64,000 nt of DNA from a virus, in the IMG/VR virus record IMGVR_UViG_3300005537_000022, positions 1 through 64,000 of that record. One strand, 5' to 3'. Of this stretch, positions 7,120-59,443 are shown piece by piece. The notes under the pieces were generated by a model. It was not told where the DNA came from, did no database searches, and saw only the letters and a program-made list of their open reading frames with translations. A program made the position numbers and the translations under genes. How positions within the stretch are numbered: position 1 is the stretch's first letter; the number at the start of each line of letters is the position of its first letter.

Positions 7120-7601
7120 TGGAGATCACCGAGAGCAGTATCGCGCCGGCGCTTGAGGGCCTCTGGGTGTACGCCAGGAACCGGGACGGCACCCACCACG
7201 CCCAGGTCATCGCCGACGAGGACACGGCGGCATCACTGTGGGAGAAACTGGCCGCGCAGAACTTGGCCGCCCCGGTCGCCGCGCCCGGGAGCGGCGACCT
7301 GGAACGCGCCTACGTCATCAACGGCGACGACCTGCGCATCGCGCTCAGCGGGCGCAACGGGAGCCCGCCGCTCGTCCCCAACCCCCGCGACGTCGCCGCG
7401 TACATCCTCGACTGGATCGCGCGCCCCCTCGACGCGAAGCCCGGCGGCGCGGTCGACGCGCACATCTGCTGCGATCACGCCGCCGCCGACCCGGAGGTGT
7501 CGTTCCTCGCCGGCGTCGTCCGGGCCCTCGACGAGATGGGCGACCTCGCCGTCGCCCGCGTCATGGCCTACCTGTCCGACCGCTACCCGGCCGACAACTG
7601 A
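7119..7601 (+). CDS. hypothetical protein, 160 aa
   Basis: Starts MEITESSIAPALEGLWVYARN. It contains HICCDHAAADPEVSF and a helical C-terminus. No recognisable catalytic motif. The ATG overlaps the preceding stop by one base. Confidence 0.6.
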   Translation: MEITESSIAPALEGLWVYARNRDGTHHAQVIADEDTAASLWEKLAAQNLAAPVAAPGSGDLERAYVINGDDLRIALSGRNGSPPLVPNPRDVAAYILDWIARPLDAKPGGAVDAHICCDHAAADPEVSFLAGVVRALDEMGDLAVARVMAYLSDRYPADN

Positions 7602-15707: not shown

Positions 15708-15776
15708 CAACCCGATCCGGCCGTGAGCAGCCAGGACGCCTGCCGCCGTCGCATCGCGGTGGGTCCCGGCAGGGAA

Positions 15777-15844
15777 GGCGCCGCACTGCTAATGCGGTTA
15801 GGGTCTACAGCCCTTCCGGGGTTCAAATCCCCGAGCCTCCGCCA
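15777..15844 (+). other. attP: attP core: 3' part of tRNA-Ser(GCU)
   Basis: The stretch carries an anticodon arm CCGCA-CTGCTAA-TGCGG (15781-15797, anticodon GCT at 15788-15790), a long serine-type variable arm, a T arm CGGGG-TTCAAAT-CCCCG, the 3' acceptor strand AGCCTCC and an encoded CCA (15842-15844). The 5' acceptor strand GGAGGCT and the D arm are missing upstream, so it is not a functional tRNA gene. Integrating phages carry exactly this kind of 3' fragment to restore the host gene. It lies 100 bases from the integrase stop. Confidence 0.8.
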
Positions 15845-15943: not shown

Positions 15944-17407
15944 TCAGCGGCCCTCCCCGGCACCCGCGGGGCGCGCCCTCCGGGGGACGATCGCCGCGGC
16001 GCGCTCCGCCGCGGCGGCGGCCACTTCCGGGAACACGGTCACGTACACGGCGTCGGTGAACGACGTCCGGGAATGGCCGAGTATGGCCGAGATCACCCGC
16101 GTGTCCTCGCCAGCGGCCTTCAGCAGCGACGCCGTCCCGTGGCGCAGGTCGTGGAACCTCACCGGCGGCAGGCCGGACCTGAAGGCGAGGATCTCGAACC
16201 GCACCGAGGTCCACTGCGCCGGAACCTCCGACCCGTCCTCCCGCGTGAACACCAGGTCGGTGTCGGGCCAGTCGCGGCCCCACGCGAGACGGTCGGCCGC
16301 CTGGGCCTTCCGCCACGCGCGCAGCGCCGCCAGGGCCGGGCCGGGGATCGGGACCGCGCGGACGGACGTCTCCGACTTCGGCCCGCTGCCGCTGCCGGTC
16401 TTCCGCACCCAGATGACGCCCTGGTCAAGGTCGGCCTCGGCCCACGTGAGCCCGAGGATCTCATCCCGGCGCAGGCCGCAGTACACGGCGACGGCGAACA
16501 GGACGGCGAGCCGCTCGCGTTTCTCGTCGAGGTAGTCGAGGAACCGCCCGGCGTGCCAGGGCATCCACACCATGACCGGGCAGGGCCGCAGCGCGGGGGC
16601 CGCCCAGGCGTCCTGCCGCTCGACCGAGGACAGGGAGCGGCCCGCCTCCCATTCCGCGGCGGCCATGTGCTTCGCGAGCTCCCTGCGGAACTTCGCTTCC
16701 CGCGCGGGGGTCCACGCCAGGGGCTTCACCATGTCCGCGTGCGGGAGCTCGACCCCCGTGCACGGGCTGAGGGGGATCTTCTTGGTCGCCGCGGCCGCCT
16801 TCATCGCGGTCCTGAACGGGGCGAGCATCCGCTCGACGCGGGCCGGGGACAGCGGCCTGGTCGACTTCTTCCTCCGCGCCTCGCCCTCGGGCAGGTTCCG
16901 CCGCGCGTCGTCGGCCCGGGCCGCAGTCATGCGCAGCAGCATCTCCGACGGCTTCTCCCCGGCCGGGAGGGGCCGGTTGACCCGCAGCATCTCGGTGATC
17001 ACCTGGGACACCTGGTCGTCGCGGACGTCGGCCAGGCGCAGCTTCCCCAGGGCGGGCTTCCAGTACAGGCGGAACGCCTCTTCGTAGCTTTCGCGCGTCC
17101 GCGGCTTGAGGTTCCGCTTCCCTGCCAGCCAGGTGTCCAGGTAGGCCGCCACGCGCAGGGACCTGTCGGCCTGGCGCCGGCCGCCGCCGCTGCGCGCGAT
17201 CGCCTCGGCGAGGTCGTCCTCGGCTTCCTTCTTCGTGTCGAACGGGCCGAGGACCGGCTGCCTGCGCTCTTCTGTCATGGAGTCGTAGCGGGCGTACCAC
17301 TTCCCGTGCTTCGGGGACTTCAGCTTCGGGCAGGGGGACGACTTGGGGTACCGCCTCCGCGTTTCCGGGTTCCGGCACCAGCACTGCCGGTAGACGCTGC
17401 CCCTCAC
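15944..17407 (-). CDS. int: tyrosine site-specific integrase, 487 aa
   Basis: The C-terminal catalytic domain has GLRRDEILGL (Arg near 313), HDLRHG (His 419, Arg 422), LGHSRTSFTDAVY (His 445, nucleophile Tyr 455). The N-terminal part has CWCRNPETRRRYPKSSPCP, an arm-binding zinc-like domain typical of actinophage integrases, and a SAM-like core-binding domain around residues 85-290. It is slightly longer than the common 380-450 aa. The GTG overlaps the repressor stop by 4 bases, so integrase is translated with the repressor. Acts on the adjacent attP. Confidence 0.93.
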   Translation of the reverse strand: MRGSVYRQCWCRNPETRRRYPKSSPCPKLKSPKHGKWYARYDSMTEERRQPVLGPFDTKKEAEDDLAEAIARSGGGRRQADRSLRVAAYLDTWLAGKRNLKPRTRESYEEAFRLYWKPALGKLRLADVRDDQVSQVITEMLRVNRPLPAGEKPSEMLLRMTAARADDARRNLPEGEARRKKSTRPLSPARVERMLAPFRTAMKAAAATKKIPLSPCTGVELPHADMVKPLAWTPAREAKFRRELAKHMAAAEWEAGRSLSSVERQDAWAAPALRPCPVMVWMPWHAGRFLDYLDEKRERLAVLFAVAVYCGLRRDEILGLTWAEADLDQGVIWVRKTGSGSGPKSETSVRAVPIPGPALAALRAWRKAQAADRLAWGRDWPDTDLVFTREDGSEVPAQWTSVRFEILAFRSGLPPVRFHDLRHGTASLLKAAGEDTRVISAILGHSRTSFTDAVYVTVFPEVAAAAAERAAAIVPRRARPAGAGEGR

Positions 17408-18057
17408 GGCTGCCGCCGCTTCGCCAGGGCGCGCTCGAGCACGTCCTGGAGGAGGGCGTTCTGCTCCAGGAGGGTGCCGATGACGGGATGGGCGCGCTGG
17501 AGTTCCTCCCGGGCCGCGCGGGCTTCCGCGAGCGCGGCCGTGATCTGCTCCGCCGCGGCGAGGCCGGGTGCCGAGGGGACGGCCGCGGCGACTTCCGCGG
17601 CGGCCTCGCTGCCGACGTACCGGGCCTCGGCGGTGATTACGGCCTGCTGGTAGGCGGCCCCGGCGCGGGAGTCGGCTTCCCAGTTGAGCTCGGTCATGAG
17701 GCACCGGTAGTACTCCTCCATCGGGACGCTCCCGCTGGCGATGACGTAGCGGCAGGCGGTGCCGTCGTCGTCGGGCGGCAGGAAGAACGCCGGGATGGGG
17801 ATGCGGAAGATGCTGGCCAGGTCGGCGAGTTCGTCGGCGTCGAACTTGCGGACCCGCCTGCCGTCCCATGACCGCTCGGCCGCCGACACCGCGGTCTTGG
17901 TCCAGCCGCCGAGCTCCGCGCCGAGCTGCTCCTGGGTCATGCCGGCCGCGCGCCGCCACCGGGCGATGTTGTAGGCGACGAGCATGTTCACGGTGATCGC
18001 GCGTTCCGGCGGGGCCGCCCGGCCCGGTTCCCTGCCCGCGTCGCTGATGTCATCCAC
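17404..18057 (-). CDS. XRE-family HTH repressor, 217 aa
   Basis: Residues 27-80 form an XRE-type helix-turn-helix (NIARWRRAAGMTQEQLGAEL ... SAAERSW). The middle is unlike peptidase-type CI repressors, and the C-terminal 90 residues are Ala/Glu-rich helix suited to oligomers. It is transcribed divergently from the excisionase-like gene across a region of repeated CAGACTT sites, and coupled to the integrase. It is the likely immunity repressor; an activator role cannot be excluded. Confidence 0.75.
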   Translation of the reverse strand: MDDISDAGREPGRAAPPERAITVNMLVAYNIARWRRAAGMTQEQLGAELGGWTKTAVSAAERSWDGRRVRKFDADELADLASIFRIPIPAFFLPPDDDGTACRYVIASGSVPMEEYYRCLMTELNWEADSRAGAAYQQAVITAEARYVGSEAAAEVAAAVPSAPGLAAAEQITAALAEARAAREELQRAHPVIGTLLEQNALLQDVLERALAKRRQP

Positions 18058-18075: not shown

Positions 18076-18198
18076 CAGGTCTGCGCGGGGACAGACTTTC
18101 CGTCAAGGTCTGGCGTGTTGCGGTAAATCGCGGTGCGGTGCGGTAATGTCGGCGCGATGGCAGACTTCACTGAAAGTCTGCGTTGTGACAGACTTTCC
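18076..18198. promoter_or_regulatory. immunity operator region with CAGACTT/AAGTCTG sites
   Basis: A perfect inverted repeat CAGACTT-CACTGA-AAGTCTG lies at 18161-18180. Half-sites or looser pairs lie at 18092-18112 (CAGACTT ... AAGGTCTG) and 18189-18198 (CAGACTTTCC); CAGGTCTG is at 18076-18083. GACAGACTTTCCG occurs twice (18090-18102 and 18187-18199). The sites lie between the repressor and the excisionase-like gene, as expected of the switch. Confidence 0.7.
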
Positions 18199-18213: not shown

Positions 18214-18453
18214 ATGATCCGCAATCCCATGACGGTCGACGAGCTGCGGGCGCTTCCCGCCGCCGTGCCGATAGCCCTCGCCTGCCGGGCACTGGGCATC
18301 GGCATCACGAAGGGCTACTACCTTGCCAGGAACGAGCGGTTCCCGGTGCCGCTGAAACCGGTCGGCGGCGCGAAGTACCGTGCCCAGCGCAGCGCGATCC
18401 TCGCCTACCTCGGCGTCTCGGAAACGGCACCCGGCCGGGAGATCGCAGCGTGA
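18214..18453 (+). CDS. excisionase-like small HTH protein, 79 aa
   Basis: The protein (MTVDELRALPAAVPIALACR ... ALGIGITKGYYLARNERFPV) fits the winged-helix AlpA/Xis type: HTH followed by a basic wing and YRAQRSAILAYLGV. I chose the ATG at 18214 because GGGAGG sits 5 bases before it; longer forms from 18157 would run through the operators. It probably directs excision and may regulate the switch. It heads a chain of 4-base-overlapping genes reaching 22147. Confidence 0.75.
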   Translation: MIRNPMTVDELRALPAAVPIALACRALGIGITKGYYLARNERFPVPLKPVGGAKYRAQRSAILAYLGVSETAPGREIAA

Positions 18454-19139
18454 GCGAGAAGACCCCGGCCGCCCTCTACCGCGTCTTCGGCGCCGAGGAC
18501 ATGCTGCTCTACGTCGGCATCAGCGAGGATTTCGGCACGCGCTGGAAGCAGCACGCGAAGATCCAGCCCTGGTGGGACGAGAAGCGGCGGCTCACGGTCG
18601 ACTGGCACGAATCGCGGCCGGAAGCCGAGGCAGCGGAGCGCGCCGCCATCAAGGCAGAGAAGCCGAAGTACAACCTGGTGCACGCAGTCACCGCCGAGGC
18701 CGCGGAGCGCCGCAGGCGGAGGCGGCCGGCCGCCTCGCTGCCGGCGGCGCGGCGAGTCCCGCCCGGCGGCCTCCGGCTGTCCATCCCGCGGCTTGAGCAG
18801 ATGGAGCCGCTGGCGTCCCTGGCCGGATTTTCCGTGCTGAGCTACTTTCCGGTACCTGAGGCCGGCGACCCGGGCATCGAAGCCTGGGCGGCGGGCCTTT
18901 ACGCCGACCTGACCCTTGCCCATGCCCGCGGGCTGCACCGGATGGGGGCGATGCTGGAGAATTCGCGGGATGCCGAGCGCATCGCGGGCACCCCCGAAGC
19001 CGCCGCGGTCGCCAGGAAGTTCCGCCGCGGGCTGTACGGTTTCACCGGCATCCCGTGCCCGCGCTGCTCTGGCGCGCCGCCCTCGGGCATGACCTGCCTT
19101 GAATGCGGCTCCGGCGCCGTCGCGGATGCCGCCGCGTGA
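18450..19139 (+). CDS. GIY-YIG nuclease-domain protein with zinc ribbon, 229 aa
   Basis: Residues 8-75 fit the GIY-YIG fold: ALYRVFG, LLYVGIS, Arg 31 in FGTRWKQH, and a downstream Glu helix ending KPKYNL. The C-terminus has CPRCSG...CLECGSG, a zinc ribbon likely to bind DNA. The middle is a basic linker (RRRRRRP). Could be a stand-alone homing or defence nuclease. GTG overlaps the excisionase-like stop by 4 bases, so it is expressed with the integration/immunity genes. Confidence 0.75.
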   Translation: MSEKTPAALYRVFGAEDMLLYVGISEDFGTRWKQHAKIQPWWDEKRRLTVDWHESRPEAEAAERAAIKAEKPKYNLVHAVTAEAAERRRRRRPAASLPAARRVPPGGLRLSIPRLEQMEPLASLAGFSVLSYFPVPEAGDPGIEAWAAGLYADLTLAHARGLHRMGAMLENSRDAERIAGTPEAAAVARKFRRGLYGFTGIPCPRCSGAPPSGMTCLECGSGAVADAAA

Positions 19140-20623
19140 CCCCTTACCCTGCGGGCGCGGACACCGTCCCCCTGCCCCTCGCAGAACCGTCAACCGGCCC
19201 GCCGACGGGCGGGCAGCTCGCCGCCCTCGGCGCCCTGCGCCGGGTCGCGGAGGAGCAGGCCCGCGGAACGGCGCAATCCCCGCCCCACCGTTCCCGCGGC
19301 GAGCGGCTGCGCCCCCTCATCGCGGCCGGGGTCATCACCGGGACCGTGCTCGGGATCGTGATCGGCATGCGCGCCGCATGGCACCCGGGCGGGCGGCCGG
19401 AGGTGCGGCTCGGCTGGTACGGCACCGCGGTGTCGCTGCTGCTCGGGTCGAAGCTGCTGCTTTCGCTGCTGGCCCGCCCGGTCCCGGACTCCCCGCGGGC
19501 GCGGGCCCTGCTGGCCCGCGCCCGGGTCGCCGCGGTGATCACCCTGTACAACGAGGACCCGGCCGCGTTCGCCGCGTGCCTTGACTCGCTGCTGGCGCAG
19601 ACGTCGATGCCCGCCGCGGTGACGGTGGTCGACGACGCGTCCGCCGGCCCGCGGTGCGCGGAGCTGGCCAGGTCGCGGGTAGGGGAGTTCGCCGCCCGCG
19701 GCACGCTGCTGCGGGTCGTCACGTTCCCGGAGAACCGGGGCAAGCGGGAGGGGCTCGCCGCCGGGTTCCGCGCGGATCCGGAGGCGTTCGCGTACCTGTG
19801 CGTGGACAGTGACACGATCCTGGCCCCGACGGCGCTGGAGCGGCTGATGCGGCCGATGACGTCGCGGAAGGTCCAGGCGGTGACCGGGTGCGTGCTGGCC
19901 GCGAACCGGGACAGGAACGTGCTCACGCGCCTGATCGACCTGCGCTACGCGTACGCGTTCCTGGGCGAGCGCGCAGCGTACAGCGTTCTCGGCTCGGTGC
20001 TGTGCGTGTGCGGGAGCCTCGCCCTGTACCGCGGCTCGACTGCCCGGAAGTACCTGCCGGCGCTGACCGGGCAGCGGTTCCTCGGCCTGCCGTGCACGTA
20101 CGGGGACGACAGGCACATGACGTTCCTCTGCTTGAAGGAGGGGAAGGTGGTGCTCGCGCCGGACGCCGTGGCGTGGACGCTCGTCCCGTACCGGATGGGG
20201 CATTTCCTCAGGCAGCAGCTCCGGTGGAGCAAGAGCTTCTTCCGCGAGTCGGCGTGGATGCTGGCCAGGATGCCGCCGTGGCGTGCCTGCTGGTGGCTGG
20301 CCCTGGTCGAGACGGTCACGTGGCTCGGGTTCACCGCAGCGCTCACCTGGTCGCTCGCGGTCCGGCCGGCGTTCACCGGCCAGTTCGCGGCGCTCGCCTA
20401 CCTGGCGTCGGCCCTGCTCCTGTCATATGCGCGGGCCGGTCATTACGCGCGGGCCGAGCACCCGGGGATGACCTGGCGGGGACGGCTCCTGACGCTGGCG
20501 ATCGCCCCGCTGTACGGGGCGATCCACATGGTCCTGCTGCTCCCGCTGCGCCTCGTCGCCCTGGTCACGCTGCGCGACCCGAGGTGGGGGACGAGGAAGA
20601 CAGTCGAGGTCGAGGCATCATGA
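19136..20623 (+). CDS. processive family-2 glycosyltransferase (polysaccharide synthase), 495 aa
   Basis: GT2 motifs are complete: VVDDAS (D166, D167), VDSD (D224-D226), GDDRH (323-327) and QQLRW (360-364), the QxxRW signature of processive synthases such as hyaluronan, chitin and cellulose synthases. Two N-terminal membrane helices (about 60-80 and 97-113) and three or more C-terminal ones (388-409, 415-432, 450-475) suit a polymer-exporting inner-membrane enzyme. The sugar is not predictable. GTG overlaps the nuclease stop by 4 bases. It partners with the GH26-like lipoprotein that follows. Confidence 0.85.
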   Translation: MTPYPAGADTVPLPLAEPSTGPPTGGQLAALGALRRVAEEQARGTAQSPPHRSRGERLRPLIAAGVITGTVLGIVIGMRAAWHPGGRPEVRLGWYGTAVSLLLGSKLLLSLLARPVPDSPRARALLARARVAAVITLYNEDPAAFAACLDSLLAQTSMPAAVTVVDDASAGPRCAELARSRVGEFAARGTLLRVVTFPENRGKREGLAAGFRADPEAFAYLCVDSDTILAPTALERLMRPMTSRKVQAVTGCVLAANRDRNVLTRLIDLRYAYAFLGERAAYSVLGSVLCVCGSLALYRGSTARKYLPALTGQRFLGLPCTYGDDRHMTFLCLKEGKVVLAPDAVAWTLVPYRMGHFLRQQLRWSKSFFRESAWMLARMPPWRACWWLALVETVTWLGFTAALTWSLAVRPAFTGQFAALAYLASALLLSYARAGHYARAEHPGMTWRGRLLTLAIAPLYGAIHMVLLLPLRLVALVTLRDPRWGTRKTVEVEAS

Positions 20624-21555
20624 GGACCCGCATCCTGGCTGTCGCGGCGGCCGTCTCGGCGTGCGCGATGGCGGCGGCCTGCACGGCGGCAGTCCGCACC
20701 GGGGACGCGCCCCGCGCCGCCGCGGCCGTGCCCGCGGTGACGGCACTGCCCGCGCATCCCGTGGGCATCGTGACCGGGGACCTGGCCGGGTTCGGCGCCC
20801 GCTGCGGGTGCTCGCCGGATCTCGCCGTCAGGTACGTCCGCTGGGGCGAGACCGCGCAGTCAGCCGGGCTGGCCTACGACCTCGGGCGGGGGGCGGTGCC
20901 GCTCGCGGAGCTGGAGCCGTACGGGGTGAGCCTGGCGCAGGTCGCGGACGGCTCCGGGGACGGGTACCTGGCGGCGTTCGCACGGCAGGTGTCCGCGCTG
21001 CGCGGCCCGGTGCTGCTGTCGTTCGCGCCCGAGGCCAACAACGACTCCTACCCGTGGGGCTGGCGGCGTTCGGGCGCCGCTGAGTACCGGGCGGCGTGGC
21101 GGCACGTCGCCGCCGTGTTCCGCGCGGCCGGGGCGCGGAATGCGCGGTGGGCGTGGATCGTGAACGCGGCCAGCATCCACACCGGGCCGCTGCCGCCCCT
21201 GTGGCCCGGCCCGGGAATCGTCTCGTACATCGGGATCGACGGGTACGCCACCCATGAGTACACGACGTTCGCCGGCCTGTTCGGGCCGACGATCGGGCAG
21301 GTCCGCCGCCTGTCCCGCGTCCCGGTGCTGATCACCGAGACCGCCGCCGACCCGCAGGCAGGGCAGGCCCGGTGGATGGCCCAGGTGACGGCCGGAGTGC
21401 GCTCCTACGGGGCGGCGGGGTTCGCCTGGTTCGACGTCGACCAGGAGAACGGCATGGACCCGGACGCCCCCCGGGGAAACCGGCACGACTGGTCTCTCGA
21501 CGGCGACCCGGCGGCCCTCGCCGCGTTCCGGGTAGCAGCGGAGGCGGCGCGGTGA
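20620..21555 (+). CDS. GH26-like glycoside hydrolase lipoprotein, 311 aa
   Basis: A lipoprotein signal (residues 1-20, Cys 21 after AMAAA) predicts a surface-anchored enzyme. The fold resembles GH26: candidate acid/base Glu 138 in LLSFAPEANNDSYPWGW and nucleophile Glu 240 in VPVLITETA, with WAWIVN and YIGIDGY between. GH26 enzymes cut beta-mannans and some beta-glucans. Synthase operons often include a cognate hydrolase, so it may trim the polymer made by its neighbour. ATG overlaps the synthase stop by 4 bases. Confidence 0.75.
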   Translation: MRTRILAVAAAVSACAMAAACTAAVRTGDAPRAAAAVPAVTALPAHPVGIVTGDLAGFGARCGCSPDLAVRYVRWGETAQSAGLAYDLGRGAVPLAELEPYGVSLAQVADGSGDGYLAAFARQVSALRGPVLLSFAPEANNDSYPWGWRRSGAAEYRAAWRHVAAVFRAAGARNARWAWIVNAASIHTGPLPPLWPGPGIVSYIGIDGYATHEYTTFAGLFGPTIGQVRRLSRVPVLITETAADPQAGQARWMAQVTAGVRSYGAAGFAWFDVDQENGMDPDAPRGNRHDWSLDGDPAALAAFRVAAEAAR

Positions 21556-21806
21556 CCGTCTTCCTGGTCGCGTACGGGCTGTTCTTCCCGCCGGCGTGGG
21601 GATTCTGGTACGCGCGGTTCCTGCGCCGCCGGGGGATCAGGGCGTTCAGCGGGCAGGCCTACTGGTTCATCGGCGGGGTAACGGTGCTGGCCGTGTTCGC
21701 CTTCGCGGGCAGCCCGGCCGCCGTCGTGGCCGCCGACCTGTCCGCCATCGCGGCGTCCGTCGCCCTCGGGGTCCGCTGGGAGCTGGGCAGGAGGCGGGGA
21801 CGGTGA
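21552..21806 (+). CDS. small membrane protein, 84 aa
   Basis: Three hydrophobic segments are visible (residues 2-20, 36-50, 52-72), with RFLRRRG between the first two. GTG overlaps the hydrolase stop by 4 bases and its stop overlaps the next GTG. Probably belongs to the glycan module, perhaps as a subunit of the exporter; this is inferred from position only. Confidence 0.6.
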   Translation: MTVFLVAYGLFFPPAWGFWYARFLRRRGIRAFSGQAYWFIGGVTVLAVFAFAGSPAAVVAADLSAIAASVALGVRWELGRRRGR

Positions 21807-22147
21807 CGATCGCGGAAGGCGTCGTGGCTGCGTGCTGGGCGGCCACGATCGTGAATATCGGCGTGGCGAGGCGGCGCGGCTTCATGTCAGGCGTGGCGCG
21901 CATGGCCTGGGTCTCAGCCGCCTCTTACGGCACTGCGGCGCTGTTCCTCGCGCTGGGGCGCGACTGGCCGGCGGCCGGCGGGGACGCCGCGCTTGCCGCC
22001 TTCTGGCTGTGGCTGTGGTGGCGCGGCCGGCGCGGGAAGCGGCGCAAGGCACTCAAGGCGATCGGGGACAAGTCCCGGGCGGTCCTCGCCGCGATGGCAA
22101 GGAACATGCCCCGGCCGGCTCCCCGGCTGGCACCGCAGAGCGCATGA
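21803..22147 (+). CDS. membrane protein with basic C-terminus, 114 aa
   Basis: About three transmembrane helices in the first 75 residues, then a strongly basic tail (RGRRGKRRKALKAIGDKSRA). Last gene of the 4-base-overlap chain that starts with the excisionase-like gene. Function unknown. Confidence 0.6.
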   Translation: MTIAEGVVAACWAATIVNIGVARRRGFMSGVARMAWVSAASYGTAALFLALGRDWPAAGGDAALAAFWLWLWWRGRRGKRRKALKAIGDKSRAVLAAMARNMPRPAPRLAPQSA

Positions 22148-22214: not shown

Positions 22215-22727
22215 ATGTCCCTGTACGACGCGGCCGTCGCTGACGGCCGCCAGCATGAGCGAGGCGCTGTACTGCTCGCGATCCTCGGGAACCCTGTCGT
22301 CGCGCGGTTCCGGGACGCATGGGTGGAGAAAAGCGGCGACGGCCCGGTCATCGCCATCTACACGAGGCAGGGCGGCGGGAACCGCGAGTGCTACTGCGAC
22401 GGCGGCGACCCGGGCCGGGCCCACGTCCCGGAGCAGTGCTACGCCGCCTGCAACGAGGCGCTGGCCGCCCATCCGCTGTACCTGCGGGACGCCGACGACG
22501 GATTCGATGCCACGTACGCCACGTTCTACTTCCGGGTGCCCGGTGAATACCGTGACGCGCTCGCGGAGGCGGCAGGCGACCCGGTGGACACCGATGCCCG
22601 CTGGCGGGAGGCGATCGAGCGCATCCGGCGCGGCGAGATCCGGCCTGCGGAAACCGCGATGATGGACCAGATCGCAGCCGCGCTCGGCGACCCGTCACCG
22701 GACAGCCCCAAGATCATCAGGATCTAG
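22215..22727 (+). CDS. hypothetical protein, 170 aa
   Basis: ATG with a strong AAGGAGG ribosome site (22199-22205). It contains VIAIYTRQGGGNRECYCDGG and EQCYAACN, a Cys-containing centre that may bind metal, and an acidic C-terminal helix. Not coupled to the genes before. Resembles actinophage conserved hypotheticals. Confidence 0.65.
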   Translation: MSLYDAAVADGRQHERGAVLLAILGNPVVARFRDAWVEKSGDGPVIAIYTRQGGGNRECYCDGGDPGRAHVPEQCYAACNEALAAHPLYLRDADDGFDATYATFYFRVPGEYRDALAEAAGDPVDTDARWREAIERIRRGEIRPAETAMMDQIAAALGDPSPDSPKIIRI

Positions 22728-56313: not shown

Positions 56314-57110
56314 GCCGGGACTATCGCGCACCGGCAGCCGCCCGGGTGGGCCGGCGGGCACAGGTCGCCCGAAGGCCACTCGATCCCGGCGGGACGGGGA
56401 TCGGCGGCGGCATTGTCCAGGCACGCCTTGCAGGTCCGGGAGTCCTGTACGGCGGCCCACCGGAGCAGTCCCGCGCCGTTCGCCTGGTACCACTCCAGCG
56501 CGGCCAGGCCGCCCGCGACCGTGATCTGGGTGACGGCCAGCCCCTCGGCGTAAGCCCCGTCCGCCACGGCGGTCTCCAGCATGCCCGCGAGCTCGGACGC
56601 GGCCGTGTCCGGATCCCAGCCGGCGAGCACGCGGGAGACTACGTTCAGGTAGCCGTCCCCGATCGCCTGGGCGATGCCCGGCCCTTCCCCGCCGCCGGAG
56701 CCGCCGGCGAGCGAGGCGAGCAGCGCGGCCAGGCCGAGCGCCTCCGCCAGCCGCCTCGCCTTCGCCGTGTCTCCCGGGGTCCAGCCGGCCGTGTCCGCGT
56801 CGGCGCTGCCCGCCATCGCGGCCTGCGCCGACGTCCCGCCGATCGCCAGGGCGTCGGCGGCGATCCGCTCGGCCAGGTCCCCGGCCGGGACCGTGATCCC
56901 CTGCGACCGCAGCCAGGCGAGAGCCGCCGCGTTCCGCTCCCGCTTGCCGGGCGCGCTGCCGTCCTGATCCGGGTGGCCGGCCGTGTACGCGGAGGCGATG
57001 GCGTCCAGTTTCCCGCGCGAGAGCGCCTGCCGCGCCGCGGCGGTGACCTTCGGGGCCCACCAGGCGGCGGCGGCCAGGTCTAGCTTCCAGCCCGGCCAGT
57101 CACCAGGGCT
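56310..57110 (-). CDS. MuF-like head morphogenesis domain, expressed by -1 frameshift from the portal
   Basis: The C-terminal part has WAAVQDSRTCKACLDNAA, WPSGDLCPPAHPGGCRC, the MuF signature. MuF proteins bind the portal inside the head. The coding signal begins at the portal stop (GDWPGWKLDLAAAAWWAPKV), but the frame has no ATG, GTG or TTG there; the only upstream ATG (57236) lies 157 bases inside the Nudix region. The frame is -1 to the portal frame and a C CCA AAA heptamer (57116-57110) joins them. The result would be a portal-Nudix-MuF fusion. Confidence 0.75.
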   Translation of the reverse strand, partial: SPGDWPGWKLDLAAAAWWAPKVTAAARQALSRGKLDAIASAYTAGHPDQDGSAPGKRERNAAALAWLRSQGITVPAGDLAERIAADALAIGGTSAQAAMAGSADADTAGWTPGDTAKARRLAEALGLAALLASLAGGSGGGEGPGIAQAIGDGYLNVVSRVLAGWDPDTAASELAGMLETAVADGAYAEGLAVTQITVAGGLAALEWYQANGAGLLRWAAVQDSRTCKACLDNAAADPRPAGIEWPSGDLCPPAHPGGCRCAIVPA

Positions 57111-59443
57111 TTTGGGACGGGCATCGCCGCCTTCACCGCGACGGTCTCTTCCGGCTCGCAGCCCAGCAGCGGCAGCACGTCGCCGAGGGAGGCGGCCAGC
57201 TCTTCCCGCAGCATCGGGTTGCCGGGCAGGTCGCACGGGTCAGCCCACATGATCGCCTCGACGGCGTCGCCGTCCGGGTCGTCCGGGTTCGGCACCACGG
57301 CACCGCCGCGGACGGGGACCGCGGCCTCGGACTCGGTCGTCCACACGATGCCCCGGTAGATGCCGTCCCCGGCCGTCCACTCGCCCGTCACCGAGCCGGG
57401 AGGGGGAACGGCCCCGGTTTCCTCTGCCCATTCGCGCCATGCGGCGCGCAGCGGGGACTCATCGCCCTCGACGTGCCCGCCGGGGAACTCGATCTTGCCT
57501 CCGGCCGGGTCGCCGGGGTCGAGCGCCCGCTGGATCATCAGGACGCGGCCGGTGTCGGCGGCGAGGACCGCGAGGCCCGCGACCGCGACCTCGCCCGCGG
57601 CCTTGCGGACCGCGAGCCTTCCGTCGTCGTTGAGGTTGTGCGCCCAGACCCCTGGCACCGAGCGGAACTCGAAGTCCCGCCACTCGCCATCCTTGCGGCG
57701 GGCCTTCGCGAACCGGCGGAATGCCCGCATCTCCTTGAGGACGGCCGTGCTGCGGACCGCATCCGCGTCCTCGTCATCGTCGTCATCGCCGGCGAGGTCG
57801 TAGGAGTAGATCCCCGTCTCCGCGGTGATCCCCGCGGAGGCGTTCCCGGCCGGGGCCGCGCCCTCGCCTTCCTTGGCGACGGGCTGGCCGGGCCCGGCCT
57901 CGTCGGCCGGCGTCATCTTCGGCTGCGGGGGCGGCGCCGGTGGCATCGCGGACTCGCCGAACTCCCGCTCGGCCAGCGACATGACCTTGATCGGCGGGTT
58001 CGGCAGGACGCCCTCCGTGCCGCCGAAGACCGTCCGCGGCAGCTCCGCGCCTTCCTCGGGCAGCCCGTCCGCCGGGTCGACGTCGCCCGCGACGGCCAGC
58101 AGCGAGGAAACCGGGATGGGCCCGGCTCTCTCCGTGTAGATGAACCGGGGGATCGGCCGGGCGTCGGTCAGCCCGTAGCGCATCTCGCGGATCTCGGACG
58201 GGCCGATGACGCCCATCTTCATGTACTTGTCGTCGGCGTTCGCCTGGTCTACGCGGTCGTCCTGCTCCTCGCCGAGGTCGAACGCGAACTTGAGCGGAAG
58301 CTGCATGTCGTCTTGCAGGAAAGCGGTCAGGATGTCCTGCACGTGGTGGGCGAGCGGGAGGTCGCCGACGCGGTGCTGCACGTCGGCCTGCGACTCGCCG
58401 CTGCTGCGGTTCACGCTCTCGGTGAACCCGAGGTCGCTGGGGACCACGGAGTAGGCGGCGCACGTCTTGCGCATCAGGAACAAGCTGAACTTGTCGTCGA
58501 AGTCCTTCTCGCTGCTCCACGCGAACGACGAGCCGCCCGGGATCCACCGGATCTGGTGCTTGCCCTCCTGGTTGCCCAGCATGAAGCCGTCCCAGTATTC
58601 CTGGAACTGCTCGATCTGCTCCGGGGTCCAGCTTTCGGGGGCGCCCGCGAAGGCGGCGGGCAGGTTCCCGGCGGTGAACCGCTGGAGGAAGTAGAGCTGG
58701 AACCGGATGTCGGTGTTGGCGTTGAGGAGGATGTCCTCCAGCGGCGCCCGGCCGTAAGCCGAGTCGTCCTGCGGGTCGTACGGCTCGTAGATCAGGTCGT
58801 CGCGGGTCAGCCAGTCCCAGGCCAGCCCGTTGACGTACTGGACGTAGGCGGGGGCGGGAGAGTCCGGGGGGTCGCCCCAGTAGTCGAGCAGCGGCGCGAT
58901 CGTGGTGCCGTCGACGACCCTCAGGCCGACGCACCGGCCGGCCCGGTTCCGCATCCGGGCCAGGGTGCCGGCGTCGTAGGACAGTACGCCCCTCATCCAC
59001 TTGGCCAGCCACGGCTTGAACAGGGTCTTGCGGTCCGGCCGCTTCAGCGCGCGCATCCCGGCGGCGATGTCATCGGCGACGTCGCCGTCGTGGCCGTCGG
59101 CGGCGACGAGCTTCCAGTCCAGGCTGCGGAGGCTGGCGATCCTGTGGCGGATGCAGAGCTGGGCTACGTCGTAGGAGCCGATCAGGCCCTTGAGCGTCTC
59201 GAAGCTGACCCGTTCGTGGGTGCGCGGCCGGGTGGCCACGTTGTACTGCGGGACGTACTCCTTGGACCGCGGGGTGCGGGAGAACCCGTCGTACGGCGCG
59301 ATCGGCTCGCCTGGCGAGAACGGGGACGACGGGCCCATCTGGGCGCGTTCCTCGGCTGCCTCGATCGCGGGCGGGACGGAGCTGCCGAAGACCTTCGCGA
59401 CAGGCACCGGCGCGGCGGCGGCGGCGCGGGAACGGACGCTCAT
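57080..59443 (-). CDS. portal protein fused to a C-terminal Nudix hydrolase domain, 787 aa
   Basis: Residues about 70-470 are the portal (RHRIASLRSLDWKLVAADGH, DDLIYEPYDPQDDSAYGRAP, LEDILLNANTDIRFQLYFLQ, PSDLGFTESVNRSSGESQAD). An acidic linker (DDDDDEDAD) follows. Residues about 615-760 form a Nudix domain; the box GHVEGDESPLRAAWREWAEE-TGA (656-678) keeps every key residue of Gx5Ex7REUxEExGU, so it should be active. Nudix enzymes cut nucleoside diphosphates linked to other groups. The portal places it in the capsid interior or neck. Fusion is read through without frame breaks. Confidence 0.88.
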   Translation of the reverse strand: MSVRSRAAAAAPVPVAKVFGSSVPPAIEAAEERAQMGPSSPFSPGEPIAPYDGFSRTPRSKEYVPQYNVATRPRTHERVSFETLKGLIGSYDVAQLCIRHRIASLRSLDWKLVAADGHDGDVADDIAAGMRALKRPDRKTLFKPWLAKWMRGVLSYDAGTLARMRNRAGRCVGLRVVDGTTIAPLLDYWGDPPDSPAPAYVQYVNGLAWDWLTRDDLIYEPYDPQDDSAYGRAPLEDILLNANTDIRFQLYFLQRFTAGNLPAAFAGAPESWTPEQIEQFQEYWDGFMLGNQEGKHQIRWIPGGSSFAWSSEKDFDDKFSLFLMRKTCAAYSVVPSDLGFTESVNRSSGESQADVQHRVGDLPLAHHVQDILTAFLQDDMQLPLKFAFDLGEEQDDRVDQANADDKYMKMGVIGPSEIREMRYGLTDARPIPRFIYTERAGPIPVSSLLAVAGDVDPADGLPEEGAELPRTVFGGTEGVLPNPPIKVMSLAEREFGESAMPPAPPPQPKMTPADEAGPGQPVAKEGEGAAPAGNASAGITAETGIYSYDLAGDDDDDEDADAVRSTAVLKEMRAFRRFAKARRKDGEWRDFEFRSVPGVWAHNLNDDGRLAVRKAAGEVAVAGLAVLAADTGRVLMIQRALDPGDPAGGKIEFPGGHVEGDESPLRAAWREWAEETGAVPPPGSVTGEWTAGDGIYRGIVWTTESEAAVPVRGGAVVPNPDDPDGDAVEAIMWADPCDLPGNPMLREELAASLGDVLPLLGCEPEETVAVKAAMPVPKALVTGRAGS
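57110..57116 (-). other. -1 slippery heptamer C CCA AAA
   Basis: On the minus strand the portal frame reads GTC CCA AAA GCC; the last C plus CCAAAA makes X XXY YYZ in the correct phase. Slipping back one base continues as AGC CCT GGT GAC TGG in the MuF frame. A GAAGGCGG sequence about 12-19 bases upstream could act as an internal stimulator. Confidence 0.7.

Follow-up and report, generated by a model that had tools for sequence, protein, structure and literature searches.

A predicted glycan synthase and hydrolase pair carried as cargo beside the immunity switch of a soil actinophage

A block of six genes (positions 18,214 to 22,147) was analysed in a window of 64,000 nucleotides, which corresponds to positions 1-64000 of the 98,382-bp virus record IMGVR_UViG_3300005537_000022, from a tailed phage of soil. 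The block holds a membrane synthase of glycosyltransferase family 2 (GT2) and a hydrolase of glycoside hydrolase family 26 (GH26). Both belong to the phage and are coupled to an excisionase-like gene at its immunity switch, as had been proposed in a first-pass annotation made from the sequence. On balance, it is probable that the block is accessory cargo on the excisionase side of the switch of a temperate tailed actinophage, making and trimming a beta-linked surface glycan, perhaps of mixed linkage, once the switch opens. The six genes are as follows:

18214..18453 (+), gene 1, excisionase/MerR-type helix-turn-helix (HTH) protein (P0001), from a weak HTH score and synteny
18450..19139 (+), gene 2, endonuclease-like protein of the GIY-YIG type (P0002), its C-terminal segment showing CxxC...CxxC, from PF01541 and PHROG 3312
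19136..20623 (+), gene 3, membrane synthase of the hyaluronan-synthase/NodC-type processive GT2 (P0003), from profiles, structures and motifs
20620..21555 (+), gene 4, probable lipoprotein and GH26 glycoside hydrolase of the lichenase type (P0004), from the CtLic26A match and fold
21552..21806 (+), gene 5, small hydrophobic protein with two hydrophobic stretches (P0005), from the reading frame
21803..22147 (+), gene 6, small membrane protein (P0006 family) whose basic tail is conserved, from homologues in loci L028, L243 and L247

All six plus-strand frames were found to be open and joined by five ATGA or GTGA overlaps, in agreement with the stepwise 4-bp arrangement first described. The 4-bp overlap is the commonest junction in the record (47 of 140 same-strand neighbours, 34%), and the five consecutive overlaps of this block form the longest such run, the runner-up having three. 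Terminase, portal, major capsid, tail and GH25 endolysin genes are present in the same record, the capsid protein being 40% identical to those of Arthrobacter phages, and phage DNA flanks the block on both sides, with the opposite-strand genes for repressor and integrase on its left and a phage gene (22215-22727) on its right.

Gene 3 is predicted to encode a protein of 495 amino acids with Pfam GT2 family domains. Its best solved structures by sequence were the hyaluronan synthase (HAS) of a chlorovirus (phmmer 6e-33) and then HAS1 of the frog Xenopus, and it scored 190 bits against the NodC model TIGR04242, under the curated cut-off of 550 for a NodC equivalog. An AlphaFold2 model was built from 21 sequences (predicted local distance difference test, pLDDT, 84.3) and searched with Foldseek; the top 13 matches were all HAS (6.6e-19 to 4.6e-15), above chitin and cellulose synthases. 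The motifs DSD (224-226, DxD), GDD (323-325), QxxRW (360-364) and WGTR (484-487) are intact, and residues D224, D226, D324-D325, R363-W364, W484, T486 and R487 are invariant in 15-21 aligned relatives, while variants of WGTR occur in some relatives of gene 3 (WTTR in L032, WVTR in L051, L058 and L059, WSTR in L012). These four motifs and the modelled HAS-like transmembrane-channel fold match those of a HAS/NodC-type processive GT2, which confirms the initial call of a processive GT2 with QxxRW and makes it more precise.

The N-terminal leader of gene 3, TGxxTGxQLaaL, is kept in the nearest chromosomal GT2. In a longer form (TGxxTGxQLaaLxxLxxIaxeQA; window 19136-19290, L145, L028, L048, L053, L243 and L247) it is common to unrelated membrane transferases (GT2 and PMT/GT39-like), and it was also seen on a collagen-like secreted phage protein; it may be a docking or exchange segment. 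A PMT-like assignment of the L243 transferase from this leader was rejected, as Pfam identifies that protein as a GT2.

Gene 4 is predicted to encode 311 amino acids, and the best match in a PDB sequence search was CtLic26A, the GH26 lichenase of Clostridium thermocellum (phmmer 2e-18). Foldseek with the AlphaFold2 model (pLDDT 89.5) also placed CtLic26A first (1.7e-21, compared to about 1e-9 for GH26 mannanases), ahead of the mannanases by about 10 orders of magnitude. The (beta/alpha)8 fold and two catalytic glutamates are present, E138 and E240 aligning with E109 and E222 of CtLic26A, and both are invariant in 26 sequences. Although gene 4 itself had no match to PF02156 at E<=1 (cut-off 20.2), its nearest relatives, in L039 and L145, pass with 42-46 bits, and with the PDB match and the fold this bears out the GH26 identity. 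The hydrolase part of the earlier call thus stands, while the lipoprotein part is probable from an N-terminus like a lipoprotein signal (VSAC / AAAC), with the lipobox read by eye.

Genes 5 and 6 are small and hydrophobic, in keeping with the two membrane proteins annotated. No homologues of gene 5 were found in the search. Gene 6 belongs to a conserved phage family of small proteins with a basic tail ending MPxPxPxLxP, whose members lie directly 3' of GH26 in the window, L028 and L243 and in the same slot in L247; the family was not found in the chromosomal GT2-GH26 loci. Another small protein, of about 56 amino acids with an LAxTG motif, one hydrophobic (transmembrane) stretch and a basic tail, precedes most solo phage GT2 genes (L001:7115-7285, which is Kromp gp78; L009, L010, L013-L015, L017, L019, L021-L025; L244:7071-7229) and resembles the sorting signal of a sortase substrate that has hardly any protein joined to it. 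Shorter forms lacking LAxTG were seen upstream of GT2 in L020, L026, L030 and L032 and in the chromosomal loci L051, L053, L058 and L059.

When genomes were scanned with an alignment of GH26 sequences, 79 loci were obtained, almost all of them from Actinomycetota. They contain 116 P0004-like GH26 genes, of which 75 come immediately after a GT2 gene (21 HAS-type, 54 BcsA-like). The nearest copies of the pair are chromosomal. They were found in L039, a Streptosporangiaceae metagenome-assembled genome (where the pair lies beside heme-biosynthesis genes; GT2 60%, GH26 44% identity), and in L145, a Streptosporangiaceae genome (GT2 61-63%, GH26 44% to the window), with the same two enzymes in the same order and with the same 4-bp overlap as in the phage. 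These chromosomal pairs differ from the phage block in having no excisionase-like gene 1, no GIY-YIG gene and no gene 6. In the GT2 tree the window groups with L039 (100/99) and in the GH26 tree with L039 and L145 together (100/100); the agreement of the two trees indicates that the pair moved as a unit from a Streptosporangiaceae chromosome to the phage. A GT2 of the window's clade was detected at E<=1e-60 in only 7 of 295 Streptosporangiaceae genomes, and no difference in codon usage or GC content was found between block and phage as a sign of recent capture. We infer the direction, from a host-family chromosome to the phage, from the wide chromosomal distribution, and the host family from the nearest pair and from the relatives of the integrase and repressor. 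A comparable chromosomal case is wps-1 of Actinoplanes missouriensis, with the GH26 protein WpsE; according to that 2026 study, no Wzx/Wzy cluster involving GH26 had previously been characterised (PMC13390465). The first-pass annotation had itself raised the possibility of a non-phage chromosomal locus captured by assembly. The pair is indeed a host chromosomal unit, but the phage genes on both flanks and the separate versions in independent phages rule out an assembly artefact, and the capture was by phage.

The same gene order, GT2 and then directly GH26, was found in other phage sequences, namely the mangrove virus GX15bay (MK557849; a complete virome assembly), L020, L026 (where GH26 follows the GT2 at 7254), L028, L030, L032 and L243, so that the recurrence anticipated among actinophages was observed. 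Single-sequence scans of viral contigs with gene 3 or gene 4 found nothing, and an alignment-based search was needed; the GT2 of L028, which is BcsA-like, was missed by the HAS-type profile and spotted by reading open reading frames (ORFs), and L243 has yet another GT2. Gene calls in the relatives were made with a script of our own. In the GT2 tree the window falls with L039, L032 with L051, L030 in a chromosomal clade (100/100), GX15bay in a Streptomyces/Actinocatenispora clade (100/100), and L020 and L026 in a phage clade with Kromp. As the phage pairs thus stand among chromosomal pairs at separate places, at least four separate phage acquisitions are indicated; on the GH26 tree, no fewer than 8 changes are required to account for the viral label, GH26 genes unlinked to synthases included. 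GX15bay has a GT2 followed by two GH26 genes, but the GT2 is of another clade and no integrase is annotated (PMC6460857). The phages of L028 and L030 have capsid proteins 68-69% identical to that of the window, but each has a cassette of its own, unlike the other's and unlike that of the window. Of the 28 records sampled from the window's capsid family, 7 have a PF13632-type GT2 and 3 of these (G299, G302 and G332) also have GH26. A further pair, in a provirus prediction (L031), was set aside as probable host flank, with PMT, GH12-lectin and UDP-glucose dehydrogenase neighbours and no portal or major capsid protein (MCP) match.

The surroundings of the block were compared between these phages. 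The neighbouring features in the window are:

15944..17407 (-), tyrosine integrase, 63% identical to that of L020/L118 (which lies beside another phage's GT2-GH26 cassette), 60% to that of L119 and 57.5% to that of L134 (a Streptosporangiaceae prophage)
17404..18057 (-), HTH protein, inferred to be the immunity repressor from PHROG 3/4, HTH_3/HTH_31 and synteny
18077..18195 (no strand), cluster of CAGACYT half-sites, presumed repressor operators and divergent promoter region, with 6 of the 13 sites in the record
22215..22727 (+), phage gene forming the right edge of the slot, 64-66% identical and in the same position in L243 and L247

The window, L028 and L243 share a common plan, in which the repressor (-) is followed by the HTH/excisionase (xis) gene (+), one or more glycosyltransferases, GH26 and a gene 6 homologue, the cassette being GH12, GT2 and GH26 in L243 and a BcsA-like GT2 with GH26 in L028. 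In L020/L118 the integrase, an xis gene (41% identity), a small transmembrane ORF, GT2 and GH26 are followed by an endolysin 45% identical to the window's. The placement of such genes under immunity operators, described as unusual at first, is therefore that of a recurrent cargo slot. The pair is absent from the same slot in L119, L134, L242 and L247, as for an accessory moron of lysogenic conversion. L119 and the prophage L134 keep the integrase/repressor/xis plan without the pair; L242, the closest capsid relative (MCP 91%), has no cassette, with RlaP and a collagen-like secreted protein in the slot; and L247, 91.7% DNA-identical to L243 in the integrase/repressor region, carries the same N-terminal leader on a collagen-like protein, followed by gene 6. 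Cargo in the slot is thus exchangeable, and much of it is secreted or directed to the surface.

The repressor gene matches transcriptional repressors of PHROG 3/4, carries HTH_3/HTH_31 domains and is 44-48% identical to the same-position repressors of L119, L134 and L028. Six of the 13 CAGACYT sites in the 98-kb record lie within the approximately 120 bp between repressor and gene 1 (Poisson P ~2e-14, for a motif picked post hoc), with half-sites arranged in direct and inverted pairs. Immunity operators had been assumed near the block, and an operator-like cluster is present there, repressor binding being presumed from the repeats. No operator motif was found to be conserved across the relatives. 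The repeats differ from one repressor region to the next, which would be expected of repressors that each recognise operators of their own. For gene 1, the excisionase-like label stands by position, its relatives adjoining homologous integrases or repressors in L020, L119 and L134, while the profile scores are weak (HTH_17 E 0.096, PHROG 32619 E 0.006). Gene 2 was upheld as GIY-YIG (PF01541 25.8 bits against a cut-off of 22.6, 1.4e-5; PHROG 3312 9e-20). No promoter or terminator of the block's own was found, and the operon begins with the excisionase-like gene behind the operator-like repeats. The repressor would thus keep the operon of xis gene and cassette repressed in lysogens; the operator-like cluster together with the position downstream of the excisionase-like gene favours expression at derepression (infection or induction) over steady expression in the lysogen.

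Under the proposed mechanism, the repressor would silence the operon in the lysogen. Upon induction, infection or spontaneous derepression, gene 3 would polymerise a cytosolic UDP-sugar into a beta-linked chain and extrude it through a channel formed by its own transmembrane part. Gene 4, anchored on the outer side of the membrane, would cut or trim that chain, and the small membrane proteins (genes 5 and 6, the latter phage-specific) may assist or adapt the synthase-hydrolase complex. The resulting glycan layer could alter the hypha surface, with possible effects on superinfecting phages, clumping or virion release.

The principal alternative is classical lysogenic conversion, in which a prophage-expressed polymer masks receptors or aids attachment or survival of the lysogen. 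It draws on the integrase-adjacent position in the window, L020 and L032 (beside a serine recombinase in L032), on the other secreted proteins, such as the collagen-like ones, among the slot cargo of relatives, and on the host type of the exopolysaccharide genes. An operon behind an operator-like cluster and an excisionase-like gene would, however, normally be off in a lysogen, and the block showed no promoter or terminator to free it; we therefore consider lysogenic conversion rather unlikely, though it is the alternative that fares best. The coating of lysogens suggested in the first-pass annotation is only partly supported: the phage does own a synthase and hydrolase pair, but the operator-like repeats point to repression in lysogens.

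As regards the product, GH26 enzymes of the CtLic26A type cut mixed-linkage beta-glucan, and beta-1,3-1,4-glucanase activity is known in GH26, GH16 and GH12. At a chromosomal Streptosporangiaceae locus (L148:6952-9137) the gene overlapping a GT2 of the window's clade is not GH26 but a laminarinase-like GH16, which would be a hydrolase swap on the same synthase type, and the L243 cassette adds a GH12. These partners (GH26 lichenase-type, GH16 laminarinase-type and GH12) suggest a beta-glucan, possibly mixed 1,3/1,4-linked, and the lichenase-type partner argues for glucan over hyaluronan. A single GT2 of Romboutsia ilealis can make (1,3;1,4)-beta-glucan, a polymer of the type that CtLic26A-like GH26 enzymes act on (PMC10374906); that synthase is not a phage gene and is likened to gene 3 by predicted product type.

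Several observations weigh against cargo that makes a beta-glycan when the switch opens. No UDP-glucose dehydrogenase was found in the 98-kb record, and HAS-like sequence leaves the sugar and linkage unfixed. Such a dehydrogenase lies near 15 of the 79 chromosomal loci, which goes against a glucan product, and at the phage locus L244:5669-8524 (record G315) a UDP-glucose dehydrogenase (Pfam), an LAKTG small transmembrane protein and a HAS-type GT2 of another group stand in a row, resembling hasB-hasA and the chlorovirus gene set; this suggests uronic-acid polymers for some members. The operators and the binding of the repressor are deduced from repeats, and no clear sigma-70 consensus promoter was seen near gene 1. 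The GH26 trees hold long branches, the phage relatives are nearly all metagenome contigs, each of uncertain completeness, and the only isolate among them, Streptomyces phage Kromp, has a GT2 without GH26. The cassette is also dispensable, given its absence from the nearest capsid relative.

That absence, which extends to most capsid-family members, and the high turnover of the slot would also fit a passenger or decaying cargo with no present function for the phage. This is improbable, as all frames and catalytic residues are intact, acquisition was repeated and independent, and the phage-only gene 6 is conserved behind GH26.

Gene 3 might instead be a single-transfer GT2 decorating the virion, teichoic acid or wall proteins, single transfer being the usual mode of phage glycosyltransferases. 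The gtr serotype-conversion modules resemble the block as a phage-borne surface-glycan change near the integration module, but gtrABC modify an existing O-antigen, whereas gene 3 is predicted to be a processive synthase and gene 4 a hydrolase. A GtrB-type conversion enzyme was rejected for gene 3, its PHROG GtrB-like match being weak (E 0.62), and no GtrA match was seen among genes 1-6, so that the set of GtrA, GtrB and specific transferase is not present. With best matches to processive HAS/NodC proteins with QxxRW, WGTR and a channel-type fold, and with a hydrolase partner, single transfer is very unlikely. Most doubtful of all is an environmental carbon gene, with GH26 degrading outside polysaccharide beside an incidental GT2, for while GH26 enzymes are usually polysaccharide degraders and soil-virus carbohydrate-active enzymes have been read in this way (in GX15bay the GH26 'mannanase' and endoglucanase genes were interpreted as carbohydrate-degrading auxiliary genes; PMC6460857), GH26 stands directly behind the synthase in the window, GX15bay, L020, L026, L028, L030, L032, L243 and 75 of 116 genomic genes, and the two genes have the same nearest relatives.

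A broader proposal, which we put forward tentatively and would not yet back at even odds, is that temperate actinophages keep a dedicated lytic-side slot, repeatedly and independently loaded with synthase-hydrolase pairs for exopolysaccharide that come from the host and are adapted by a membrane protein specific to phages. The infected or induced hypha would be briefly wrapped in a new beta-glycan, a bacteriophage counterpart of the chlorovirus hyaluronan coat. We know of no hydrolase partner for the chlorovirus HAS. The HAS of chlorovirus PBCV-1 is, like gene 3, a viral class I HAS-type GT2 and its closest solved structure; chlorovirus HAS genes are expressed early and give a coat on the infected cell, and chloroviruses make hyaluronan or chitin during infection, although the polymer is dispensable for laboratory replication (PMC7019647). 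The chlorovirus differs in being an algal virus with a proven product and its own dehydrogenase making UDP-glucuronic acid, a gene absent from the phage record, where the product is predicted. No earlier report of phage-borne HAS-type synthase cassettes, with or without a hydrolase, was found in the open-access literature, subscription papers lying outside the scope of the search. Viral surface-polysaccharide synthesis is of a known kind; what the sequences add is its probable occurrence in tailed actinophages, where the synthase is accompanied by a hydrolase and placed in a regulatory slot. Viral polysaccharide synthesis is best known from the algal chloroviruses, and its purpose there is still an open question; these cassettes offer a bacterial system, amenable to simple gene deletion, for asking why a virus builds a polymer on its host, and the repeated uptake of pairs by related viruses points to viruses re-coating infected bacteria. 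If this is true, some of the 'carbon-degrading' phage genes in soil viromes, such as those of GH26 and GH12, would encode enzymes that trim polymers made by the phages themselves, and caution is advised where GH26-type genes are taken as biomass-degrading, as they may serve phage polymer synthesis.

Further observations were made around these loci. A complete tRNA-Ser(GCT) (window 15759-15844, +) adjoins the integrase and may be an attachment site or a phage-borne copy; tRNA-Ser(GCT) also lies beside the L119 integrase, and tRNA-Ser(CGA) several kb away in L134 and L135. The RlaP-type nucleotidyltransferase (PF10127) that occupies the cassette slot in L242 (L242:10362-11075) is 74% identical to one that the present phage (record G000, 73484-74221, +) has at a different genome position. 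The portal gene (window 57080-59443, -) carries a C-terminal NUDIX hydrolase domain (PF00293, 1.1e-14) after the portal domain. Ro60/TROVE-like proteins, recognised by eye, were seen near phage GT2/GH26 loci (L007:9397-11052, L243:11071-12636 and L244:12505-14001).

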